A stretch of DNA of 32,165 bases, taken from positions 1 through 32,165 of the forward strand of contig CAJXOR010000018.1 of NCBI GenBank assembly GCA_913057715.1. Direction: 5' to 3'. The DNA is from an uncultured Moraxellaceae bacterium (GTDB lineage Bacteria; Pseudomonadota; Gammaproteobacteria; Pseudomonadales; Moraxellaceae). Of the stretch, positions 27,960-32,165 are shown piece by piece. Numbering within the stretch: the stretch's first letter is position 1; each line of letters opens with the position of its first letter. The notes beneath the pieces are model-generated. The model was not told the DNA's origin. It did no database searches and saw only the letters and a list, made by a program, of their open reading frames with translations. The translations under genes and the position numbers were made by a program.

Positions 27960-28817
27960 TCAGTGGTTGTTCAACCACAGCGGCCCTATCGACATCTCAG
28001 GTAATTCGAACTTAGCTGGGTAATAGGCGTTAACGAAGTAGAGTCCGTCTGGCGGAGCAGTCGCTGGCGCTAGTGTGCGGTCTTTAGCTAACAGTATCTC
28101 GGATACGCAGCTGGGCTTGAGCTCACCCTGACCAACTTTTAAAAAGGTACCCATGAGATTGCGTACCATGTGGTGCAAAAAGCCATTTGCCTTTATATCC
28201 AGAACCACAAGAGAGCCTTGAGCAGAAAACCTCGCAAACTCAATCCGCTTAATGGGGCTCGGTGCTTGGCAAGCAGCAGCTCTAAAACTACTGAAGTCGT
28301 GCTCACCGACGATCAAGTCGGCGGCCTCTTGCATGAGCGACACATCTACAGCCTGGTTGATGCAGGTCACCATACCGCTCATGAGTGCGCTGGGGTGGTT
28401 TTGCACCGAACATACATAGTGGTAGCGACGGGCGTTTGCCTTGAAGCGAGCATGGAACTGTGGATCCATGTTTTTGACCCAGCGCACAGCTATATCGTTA
28501 GGTAACCAGGTATTGATACCTCGTAGCCACTGGTGCTGGGTGCGCTCAGATGGGCTGCAAAAGTGAGCCACCATGTTGCTTGCATGAACCCCTGCGTCAG
28601 TTCGCCCAGCGCCTTGCAGGGTAACTTGATGATTGGCGACACGACTGATCGCCTTCTCCAGCTCTTCCTGAACACTGGCCACGCCAGCCTGTTGTCGCTG
28701 CCAGCCGCGGTAATTACTGCCGTTAAACTCTATGCCCAGAGCAATGGTTTGAGCCTGAGGAGGTATGGCTGAATGTTCAGGGTTGATCGGTTGTGATTTT
28801 GGGTCTTTGGGGTTCAT
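27960..28817 (-). CDS. truA: TruA, tRNA pseudouridine(38-40) synthase
   Basis: Converts uridines 38, 39 and 40 of the anticodon stem to pseudouridine. I chose the ATG at 28817 (285 residues); an open TTG at 28859 would add residues without family character. The catalytic Asp74 lies in LQGAGRTDAGVHASNMVAHF. FNGSNYRGWQRQQ near the start and ARRYHYVCSVQ, FSSFRAAACQAPSPIKRI and GFLHHMVRNLMGTFLKVGQG follow as in the family. The first 22 residues (Pro/Gln-rich) precede the fold and are probably disordered. It is downstream of the fimV-like genes, as in Pseudomonas fimV-truA, but here an asparaginase-like gene is interposed. Confidence 0.96.
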   Translation of the reverse strand: MNPKDPKSQPINPEHSAIPPQAQTIALGIEFNGSNYRGWQRQQAGVASVQEELEKAISRVANHQVTLQGAGRTDAGVHASNMVAHFCSPSERTQHQWLRGINTWLPNDIAVRWVKNMDPQFHARFKANARRYHYVCSVQNHPSALMSGMVTCINQAVDVSLMQEAADLIVGEHDFSSFRAAACQAPSPIKRIEFARFSAQGSLVVLDIKANGFLHHMVRNLMGTFLKVGQGELKPSCVSEILLAKDRTLAPATAPPDGLYFVNAYYPAKFELPEMSIGPLWLNNH

Positions 28818-28891
28818 GCTCAGATCACTGTTGAGATGGCGAATATGGTAACACTGCAAAAAAAGTTCGCCACACTTGATGCGAGCATCGT

Positions 28892-29905: not shown

Positions 29906-32013
29906 ATGGAGTCGAGAAGTTTTTGCGCCTGTTGACGATCGTCATCGGCTCCATTTTCTAGGACGTCTTCCAACAGGCTTTGCGCGCCTGATTTCTCACC
30001 CAGTCGAATGTACTCTTTGGCCAGCTTAAGGTTGACGTGGGTTGACTCACCTGAATCTATGTCGGAGAACTCTCTGTCCAAGCTGGCAAACCAGTCATCA
30101 TCGATGTCGTCAGATTCAGTGTTATCACCAGAGATAGATGATGTGGCACTGGATTCGGGTTCACTCAGGGCTGGGCTGATTAAAGTGGGTTCTTCTTCGG
30201 TGTCTGCCTCTTCAAAATCAAAGTCAAACTCGGCATCTGGCATTGCTTCTTCTGAGACTGCTTGATCTGAATCAAGCGTATTCACCTTCTGTATGTCATC
30301 CTCTTTAGTTTCGGCAACTTCGAGGGAATCAGAGGGATCTTTATCTAAATTCTCAGCAGGGTTGTCCGAAGGATCAGGAGTTAACTCTGGCTCATCTTCA
30401 TCCAAGCTAAGCGAAAAATCAGTTTTGGTGTCTGTGGAAGAGTTGACTTCTGGCTCCAGTGAAAAGCCAAAATTAAGCTCGTCCTCCAGGCTAATAGACT
30501 CTGATTTTGCTTCAGTTTCCGGTTTAACCTTGGGCTGGTCAACCGCCTCAAACTGCATCGATAAATCGAAGGTGCCCGGTTCTGACTCGGCGCTGTCCAG
30601 CTCAATTTGATCCAGCGCATCACCTGCTAGGGCTTCACCAAAGTCAAAGGTGTCACCGTCATCCATGGTTTCCATGGATTCATCGTCCATGTCCAACTGA
30701 TAGGCAGTGTCTTCACTGGTATCAGCTGCGAGCTCTGAAGAGGATAAGTCGTTTGCAAAATCATCCTCATCAGAGGCTGTATCAGGGTCCGATTCAAGTT
30801 TTAAGCTTTCGTTGTCCGATTTGATTGGCTCCATATCAAAGTCGATATGATCTGGACCCGGCTGTGATTGTTGATCCAAGGTGGGAATGCCGTCTGAATC
30901 TGCTGGCTGATCTAAGGTGGGGATATTTTCATGATCGCTGCTAGCAACAAAATCAATATCACCTGCTTCTTCTAGCCCGATATCGTCATCGGCAGGACTT
31001 AGTTTGAGCTCAGTGAGTTGCTCTGAGTCGGCTGCTTCTTGATTGATGGGTGAGGAGGGTTCGTCTGCCTCATCGGTTATATCAAGCTCATAGCTAATGT
31101 CATCTAATGACAAGCTACCTGTTGGGTTTTCATCGTTCTTGGACTCAAATTCGATGACATTTGCTGAGGGCTCGAAATCAATTGAGGCAGTCTCTGAGGT
31201 TTCATCGGTTGATGAGGAGTTAGGGTCTTCAACATCAAGTGAAAAGTCTTGTCCGTCACTCACTGAGTCAGCTTCAGGCTCTTCATCAGAGATATCTTCG
31301 TCTATGGTGATTTTAAGGTTAGTCAGACTGACGTTGGTCATGGCTGTCTGAGTCATCTCATTTTCAAGATCAAGCAAGGTTTGATCTAAAGAGGGCTCCA
31401 AATCAAAATCAATATCTAGATTATCCAGCTCATCGGGATTGTCAGATGAAGATTGGGGTAGGTCTAACGCCTTAAGGTTCTCTGCATCGGTCTGATTTAA
31501 AGTGGGGATGTTACTTGGAGCAGGTTCTGCCGGGGTGATTGCGGCTTTGACTGAGCTTCGCTCAGAATGGATAGCGTCGATCTTACTTTTGGGTATGTCG
31601 TTTGGAGTTACCTCAAAGCGAGCACGAAGTGCGTTGGCTTTGGAGATAGTTTCAGGATCAGCTTGGTGACAGATAATATCGTATTGGTTTTCAAATGCTT
31701 CGGCTTGACGAGTTTTCACGTAAATCGCCATAAGAAACAGTCTTAAGTCGTGATTAGCCGGATCTTGATCGAGTTGAATCTCACAAAAACCAACGGCCTG
31801 TGCCACTTTGTTTTGCGCAAGCAACTCTCTGGCTTGAGTCAGTGAATTACCTGAATTGGACTCTGCATTAGTCTCGGATTTGTCTGATTTAGACTTAAGC
31901 TTCTTGGGCGAAGTTCCCGTTGGTTTGTTTTTTCGACCTCGCAGGTACACGACCACCAGCAAAAGCACTAGGATGACATTGATCAACAGCGATGCTGGTA
32001 GGGCGTAGTACAT
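29902..32013 (-). CDS. fimV: FimV-like protein, membrane and cytoplasmic half
   Basis: 703 residues with the layout of the C-terminal half of FimV, a polar inner-membrane protein needed for type IV pili and twitching. A single transmembrane helix lies at about residues 6-24, followed by a basic stop-transfer stretch. A TPR-like helical region is at about 55-130 (LTQARELLAQNKVAQAVGFCEIQL). About 500 very acidic, probably disordered residues follow. The protein ends with the FimV C-terminal domain HVNLKLAKEYIRLGEKSGAQ...SLLEDVLENG. The acidic part contains IPTLNQ once and IPTLDQ twice. The ATG at 32013 has AGGAG six bases upstream. The N-terminal LysM/periplasmic half appears to lie upstream in the same frame, separated by one TAG. 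The next two genes are the asparaginase-like gene and truA. Confidence 0.85.
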   Translation of the reverse strand: MYYALPASLLINVILVLLLVVVYLRGRKNKPTGTSPKKLKSKSDKSETNAESNSGNSLTQARELLAQNKVAQAVGFCEIQLDQDPANHDLRLFLMAIYVKTRQAEAFENQYDIICHQADPETISKANALRARFEVTPNDIPKSKIDAIHSERSSVKAAITPAEPAPSNIPTLNQTDAENLKALDLPQSSSDNPDELDNLDIDFDLEPSLDQTLLDLENEMTQTAMTNVSLTNLKITIDEDISDEEPEADSVSDGQDFSLDVEDPNSSSTDETSETASIDFEPSANVIEFESKNDENPTGSLSLDDISYELDITDEADEPSSPINQEAADSEQLTELKLSPADDDIGLEEAGDIDFVASSDHENIPTLDQPADSDGIPTLDQQSQPGPDHIDFDMEPIKSDNESLKLESDPDTASDEDDFANDLSSSELAADTSEDTAYQLDMDDESMETMDDGDTFDFGEALAGDALDQIELDSAESEPGTFDLSMQFEAVDQPKVKPETEAKSESISLEDELNFGFSLEPEVNSSTDTKTDFSLSLDEDEPELTPDPSDNPAENLDKDPSDSLEVAETKEDDIQKVNTLDSDQAVSEEAMPDAEFDFDFEEADTEEEPTLISPALSEPESSATSSISGDNTESDDIDDDWFASLDREFSDIDSGESTHVNLKLAKEYIRLGEKSGAQSLLEDVLENGADDDRQQAQKLLDSM

Positions 32014-32049
32014 AAAAGCTCCTGACTGTAGTTGGTGTAAGTTAACAGC

Positions 32050-32165
32050 CTACTTGTTGGTTTTATTCAGTGACTTAAGCTTGCTTTCAAGCTCGGCTAA
32101 GCGGGAATTTTGCAGCTTGATCTTGGCGTTATAGGTGTTTAGCTGGGTAATCAGTTGATTCACCG
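32050..32165 (-). CDS. C-terminal end of the upstream gene, probable periplasmic half of FimV (partial)
   Basis: The last 38 codons of a gene entering from beyond the window, ending at TAG 32052-32050. They encode a heptad-patterned coiled coil (VNQLITQLNTYNAKIK, LQNSRLAELESKLKSL, NKTNK). FimV proteins carry such a coiled coil just before the transmembrane helix. The reading frame is the same as that of the 32013 gene, with no other stop in the 36 bases between. Together they look like one FimV divided by an amber codon. Most of the gene is not visible, so the identity is inferred. Confidence 0.6.
   Translation of the reverse strand, partial: VNQLITQLNTYNAKIKLQNSRLAELESKLKSLNKTNK

Follow-up and report, generated by a model that had tools for sequence, protein, structure and literature searches.

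FimV probably encoded as two consecutive genes in an uncultured Moraxellaceae bacterium and in related genera

The fimV locus at the end of the contig

The sequence analyzed here (the window) is an entire contig, C18, of 32,165 bases from an uncultured Moraxellaceae bacterium. On its minus strand, a frame encoding a coiled coil (VNQLITQLNTYNAKIKLQNSRLAELESKLKSLNKTNK) enters at position 32165 and is terminated by a TAG codon at 32052-32050. The 12 codons that follow the TAG (AVNLHQLQSGAF) are open and share the frame of an ATG at 32013-32011, which is preceded by an AGGAG at 32023-32019 and opens a 703-aa protein comprising a transmembrane segment (TM), a tetratricopeptide repeat (TPR) stretch, an acidic region, and the FimV C-terminal domain (Table 1). 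These elements, namely, the terminating TAG, the open in-frame codons, the AGGAG, and the ATG that begins the membrane and cytoplasmic half, had all been described from the letters of the sequence, and all were borne out when the minus strand was re-read. Residues 648 to 702 of this downstream protein (the C-half) match the PDB entries 4mal/4mbq, "Motility protein FimV" (E = 3.5e-4), which we take to be the Pseudomonas aeruginosa protein. The C-half gene is followed by asparaginase-like and truA-like genes, and the annotation of Acinetobacter baumannii likewise lists an asparaginase and truA at the equivalent positions. The genome that carries the window also contains a PilQ match of 519 bits.

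Table 1. Features of the window around the division of fimV
Feature	Coordinates	Strand	Basis or remark
N-half FimV, C-terminal coiled-coil tail	32053..32165	-	37-codon open frame VNQLITQLNTYNAKIKLQNSRLAELESKLKSLNKTNK, exits at contig end
N-half TAG stop	32050..32052	-	Counterpart is TAA/TAG/TGA in 30/8/6 of 44 split loci
36-nt spacer; AGGAG at 32019-32023 resembles a ribosome site	32014..32049	-	
C-half FimV gene, 703 aa	29902..32013	-	FimV_Cterm and PDB FimV matches
Hydrophobic TM-like stretch, aa ~6-24	31942..31998	-	Read by eye from the translation
TPR_19 stretch, aa 64-110	31684..31824	-	PF14559, 30.7 bits (cut-off 25)
Acidic cytoplasmic region, aa 170-640	30094..31506	-	D/E 31%, pI 4.05
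FimV C-terminal domain, aa 661-702	29908..30033	-	TIGR03504 FimV_Cterm, 41.6 bits (cut-off 30.65)
Asparaginase-like gene, 337 aa	28892..29905	-	Similar frame in 34/53 loci; named by position and similarity
truA-like gene	27960..28859	-	Similar frame in 46/53 loci; named by position and similarity

The sequence-only reading offered three explanations for the TAG: a real split of FimV into one protein in the periplasm and another in the membrane and cytoplasm, a recent nonsense mutation rescued by reinitiation, or amber readthrough. The first was supported by the comparisons described below, and the other two were not.

Because the window is the whole contig, the LysM region of the upstream gene (the N-half) cannot lie inside it. 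The genome (2.23 Mb in 131 contigs) yields a single FimV_core match, at C27:25410-25598, in a frame that lies behind an asd-like gene and heads toward the terminus of contig C27; asd is annotated at the matching position in A. baumannii. This 313-aa piece of the N-half scores above the cut-offs for FimV_N (57.6 bits; cut-off, 27), LysM (22.2 bits; cut-off, 20.9), and FimV_core (50.0 bits; cut-off, 43.45). The last 47 bases of the contig (C27:25709-25755) are adapter-like, that is, the assembly contains untrimmed adapter there, presumably the Nextera transposase adapter plus index; the genome's own sequence thus stops at C27:25709, and the N-half is cut. Order and direction of the genes fit a single series consisting of asd and the N-half on C27, a gap, and then the N-half tail, the C-half, asparaginase, and truA on C18. 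Thus, the two pieces would form one locus, gene order being the one link between them. The middle part of the N-half is absent from both contigs, so that the N-half of this genome is incomplete; because the N-halves of relatives are mostly ~450 to 620 aa long in the frame listings, we estimate that perhaps ~100 to 270 aa are missing. The concern, voiced in the sequence-only reading, that the upstream gene might prove to lack LysM and FimV features did not materialize, although these features lie on a separate contig whose physical connection to the window is deduced from gene order.

Distribution and anatomy of the divided gene

FimV_core and FimV_Cterm profiles were searched against 145 genomes, 90 of which belong to Moraxellaceae and 55 to other families (genera are labeled g1 to g16, and genomes by G numbers), and the 90 genomes were sorted by their listed frames and the fetched loci. 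In 44 of the 90 (window included), FimV is encoded as two frames divided before the TM (g1, 1 genome; g7, 5; g8, 1; g9, 14; g11, 5; g12, 3; and g15, 15). The two domains lie in one frame in 32 genomes (g2, 6; g3, 3; g4, 2; g5, 4; g6, 3; g10, 4; g13, 1; and g14, 9), a class assigned from the frame listing, with 15 and then 4 more loci read directly. No genus among the 90 genomes mixes the split and one-frame states. Five genomes were placed in neither class: no N-half frame of at least 120 aa is present in the stretch read from G008, the contig of G015 begins inside the C-half, and the FimV halves are on different contigs in G049, G062, and G087. Nine genomes, eight of g11 and one of g2, gave no match to either profile, which is not proof of absence given that the profiles missed halves that are present, namely, the C-half in G040, G081, and G099 (g15) and the N-half in G095 and G100 (g9).

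The proposed real split is therefore well supported within the family, and the comparison suggested in the sequence-only reading, TAG versus a sense codon in related genomes, revealed a stop codon at the equivalent position of 43 further loci. These stops, in independent genomes, speak against a sequencing or assembly error at the TAG, the other way in which that reading was expected to fail; such an error is barely credible, even in a fragmented assembly in which adapter-like sequence closes one contig. A recent nonsense mutation in a FimV that is usually intact, with rescue by reinitiation, would suit a spacer that is short and in frame. However, among genomes in which both halves were readable on one contig, the same division occurs in 5 of g7, 14 of g9, and 5 of g11, the genera nearest to the window on the tree (support, 100), and the C-half begins at a matching position with respect to the TM and has a Shine-Dalgarno (SD)-like site of its own; moreover, dN/dS values well below 1 in pairs of relatives (see below) argue against reading the gene as a pseudogene. 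A recent mutation is contradicted by the nearest genera and is very improbable.

Across the 44 split loci, the N-half ends in TAA (30 loci), TAG (8 loci), or TGA (6 loci), and the start of the C-half is in the frame of the N-half in 22 loci and in a different frame in the other 22. The gap between the halves has a median of 57 nt and ranges from -8 to 432 nt. All 44 chosen C-half starts follow an SD-like run of 4 nt or more, a count that is biased because the start was chosen partly by this feature. The spacer is in frame and open throughout in six loci (the window, G011, G046, G048, G068, and G078), compared with ~2.9 expected from shuffling the spacers of 36 loci, all six open ones among them; these numbers are small and related, G046 and G078 being close relatives. 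With 6 of the 44 loci set against the shuffled expectation, an in-frame open spacer carries little evidential weight. Amber readthrough, whereby the TAG would sometimes be decoded to give both a short and a full-length FimV, could draw on the 12 open codons of the window and on the roughly 2-fold excess of open spacers, but TAG is the stop in only 8 of the 44 loci, half of the starts are out of frame, and 38 loci could not yield a readthrough product at all. With readthrough conceivable in six loci only, this option found no support and is highly unlikely.

Most of the N-halves in the 44 loci end soon after a similar coiled-coil motif (the exceptions noticed are G007, G040, G100, and the shortened G092 and G095), and the C-half starts a few residues ahead of the TM, except in g12. 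Pfam FimV_N scored above the cut-off in all four N-halves scanned (g15, 51.3 bits; g11, 53.9; g9, 35.2; and g7, 53.9) and was not reported in the three C-halves scanned, which show TPR. Pfam LysM reached 20.7 and 19.0 bits (cut-off, 20.9) in two of these four N-halves, with no match reported in the other two; FimV_core is the better marker.

Several loci depart from this layout. In g9, the N-half is shortened before its coiled coil in G092 (locus L056) and G095 (L065) and was not found in the stretch read from G008 (L063), with the C-half intact in all three; the N-half thus appears dispensable in some species. The one-frame FimV of g2 is only ~546 to 581 aa long, with the FimV C-terminal domain soon after the TM and the acidic region nearly absent. 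The eight g11 genomes without a FimV match have a short PilQ frame (451 to 502 aa in seven; no PilQ match in G064), and the PilQ frames of the six g11 genomes with FimV span 701 to 724 aa. In g11, the presence of FimV seems to coincide with that of the N-terminal part of PilQ, and a single event in one subclade may account for this pattern. Among the other families, G111, G112, and G127 have the two FimV domains in different frames, yet these were not counted as the same split because their first frame extends through the TM and is broken beyond it, in a low-complexity part that is only partly readable. Neither were G036 and G142, where the two FimV matches lie at contig ends or at two FimV-like loci; the remaining genomes of the 55 were classed by listed frames alone.

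Maintenance of the N-half and the published FimV of Acinetobacter

Names for members of the family came from ribosomal protein L2 (RplB) and from A. baumannii records in a plasmid collection. Of the 270 residues of RplB from G085 (g15), all but 3 agree with chain 6v39_C, a deposit for the A. baumannii ribosome (PMC6974574), and the best match of RplB from G022 (g9) is 8rd8, from work on Psychrobacter urativorans (PMC10901736). When a g15 N-half was compared by tblastn with this plasmid collection, four records were retrieved, all from A. baumannii and all containing the N-half; a second g15 N-half retrieved the same four, and a g9 N-half gave weak partial matches to two of them. Three of these records, filed as plasmids (NZ_CP104448.1, NZ_CP077849.1, and NZ_CP064203.1), are 3.66 to 4.09 Mb long and look like chromosomes, and the other is 1.02 Mb; all four are evidently chromosomes or chromosome parts. 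In A. baumannii CP035931.1, whose recorded taxonomy is Moraxellaceae, the gene order is asd, a hypothetical protein (454 aa), 59 nt, a second hypothetical protein (420 aa), asparaginase, and truA. The 454-aa protein matches FimV_N (49.5 bits) and falls below the cut-offs for LysM (16.6 versus 20.9 bits) and FimV_core (36.2 versus 43.45 bits). The 420-aa protein is below the cut-off for FimV_Cterm (14.3 versus 30.65 bits) but occupies the same place and has the same TM start as the C-halves. These low profile scores may be the reason why both halves are labeled hypothetical.

Ellison et al. (2022) detected no FimV in Acinetobacter baylyi by bioinformatics and recovered ACIAD0477 by pulldown with FimL; this protein, described as a truncated FimV homologue lacking the periplasmic domain, sets the line of pili along the long axis of the cell and depends on PilG and FimL (PMC9596432). 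The A. baumannii homologue is stated to be one that "completely lacks a periplasmic domain" (PMC12918733), and A. baumannii fimV is given as a hypothetical protein (PMC8811193, PMC8088505); deletion of fimV ABD1_03970, which could be either half, left transformation unchanged (PMC8811193). In searches of the open-licence literature on Acinetobacter and Moraxellaceae FimV, on A. baylyi, and on ACIAD0476 to ACIAD0478, no title or passage was found in which the upstream gene is named as the missing half of FimV.

These descriptions (PMC9596432, PMC12918733), together with g9, where the N-half is shortened in two genomes and was not found in a third, would favor the possibility that FimV works as the C-half alone, with the N-half a remnant being lost. 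Several observations weigh against it. The N-half adjoins the C-half in all 15 g15 genomes read and is present in all four matching A. baumannii records, and the eight g11 genomes without a match lack one to both halves rather than to the N-half alone. In 12 within-genus pairs, drawn from g7, g9, g11, and g15 only, with some genomes used twice and some dS values saturated, dN/dS is 0.08 to 0.41 for the N-half and 0.17 to 0.47 for the C-half; in 11 of the 12, similarity is higher in the N-half than in the C-half. To judge by these substitution rates, both halves of FimV are under purifying selection and maintained in relatives of the window genome, and a vanishing N-half is unlikely. ACIAD0477 resembles the C-half described here in that it starts at the TM and matches the FimV C terminus. 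However, the periplasmic domain is treated as lost in that work (PMC9596432), whereas the 15 g15 genomes read and A. baumannii CP035931.1 carry it directly upstream. The published view that Acinetobacter FimV has no periplasmic domain would thereby be corrected, and two adjacent A. baumannii "hypothetical proteins" would be given an identity as the halves of FimV.

Origin of the division and comparison with FimV/HubP

On a tree built from RpoB and TruA (44 rows, 4 of them with TruA only), the split genera form one clade together with g10 and g16 (support, 99), which g5 and g13 adjoin (support, 96). The split/one-frame label needs two changes on the best tree because the one-frame g10 sits beside g15 (support, 87), inside the clade; grouping all split rows as one clade was not rejected in a test on a quick tree (p-AU, 0.174). 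A single split, a split followed by re-fusion, and several splits are all compatible with the tree.

The one-frame FimV of g5, g10, and g13 shares the coiled-coil tail, the TM, and the flanking truA with the split genera but has a signal-peptide-like segment where those have a stop and a start. This segment is a basic hydrophobic stretch between the coiled coil and the TM, ending in AKA|A or ARA|A, as read in eight printed proteins (L212 to L215, L070, L071, L072, and L083) of the nine genomes in these genera. A self-made signal peptide rule, written after the sequences had been seen, identified such a segment in all five g5, g10, and g13 proteins scanned, compared with none of 10 other one-frame proteins. 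In the three g12 C-halves read, the protein begins with a signal-peptide-like stretch that precedes the TM, and the sole g8 N-half ends in a hydrophobic stretch. The segment is much alike between g5 and g13, though its flanks differ. The placement is no proof, but it suggests that the break point started out as a processing site. It is conceivable, if rather doubtful, that the split at the protein level preceded that of the gene, with signal peptidase cutting the unbroken FimV of g5, g10, and g13 and a later stop making the separation permanent; if so, cleavage in these genera would set free a LysM protein in the periplasm and leave a hub in the membrane.

FimV/HubP proteins are described as landmarks that span the inner membrane, binding peptidoglycan on the outside and forming a hub in the cytoplasm. 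In the bacterium studied here, FimV is very probably two consecutive genes, separated by an old break that is common to sister genera and Acinetobacter. In the exported periplasmic protein encoded upstream, the FimV_N Ig-like domain would be followed by a LysM-like core and, at the C terminus, by a coiled coil. The TAG would end this N-half, and 36 nt farther on would begin a second gene with its own ribosome site, whose product would sit in the inner membrane by a single TM and carry TPR, the long acidic region, and, as its hub, the C-terminal domain of FimV. The short spacer and the SD-like sites point to one message with two translation starts that would give two proteins. Peptidoglycan binding would no longer be tied covalently to the cytoplasmic hub, and a C-half that places the type IV pilus machine would, with its scaffold no longer held in this way, have to use other anchors. 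Such a loss fits, without proving, the dependence of A. baylyi FimV on PilG and FimL (PMC9596432).

In much of Moraxellaceae, then, the two parts of FimV/HubP are separate, maintained genes. This arrangement allows a direct test of whether the hub requires a physical connection to peptidoglycan binding, and of a possible association between the separation and the unusual arrangement of A. baylyi pili in a line along the long axis. An exported LysM protein tied to type IV pili is also known in TsaP of the type IV pilus secretin; however, TsaP has a gene of its own (ABD1_01670), distinct from fimV (ABD1_03970) in the A. baumannii gene list, and the N-half has FimV_N and FimV_core. P. aeruginosa FimV and the HubP of Vibrio and Shewanella share with the two genes the order of FimV_N, LysM-like core, coiled coil, TM, TPR, acidic region, and C-terminal domain. 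FimV_N and the LysM-like core (on the other contig), the C-terminal TPR-like domain, and the TM with the acidic region are all found in the genome studied here, but the TAG and the new start interrupt the single polypeptide that spans periplasm and cytoplasm in FimV/HubP, so that its periplasmic and membrane/cytoplasmic parts do not form a single chain. For lack of this one spanning polypeptide, we refer to a two-gene FimV rather than to an ordinary member of the FimV/HubP polar landmark family.
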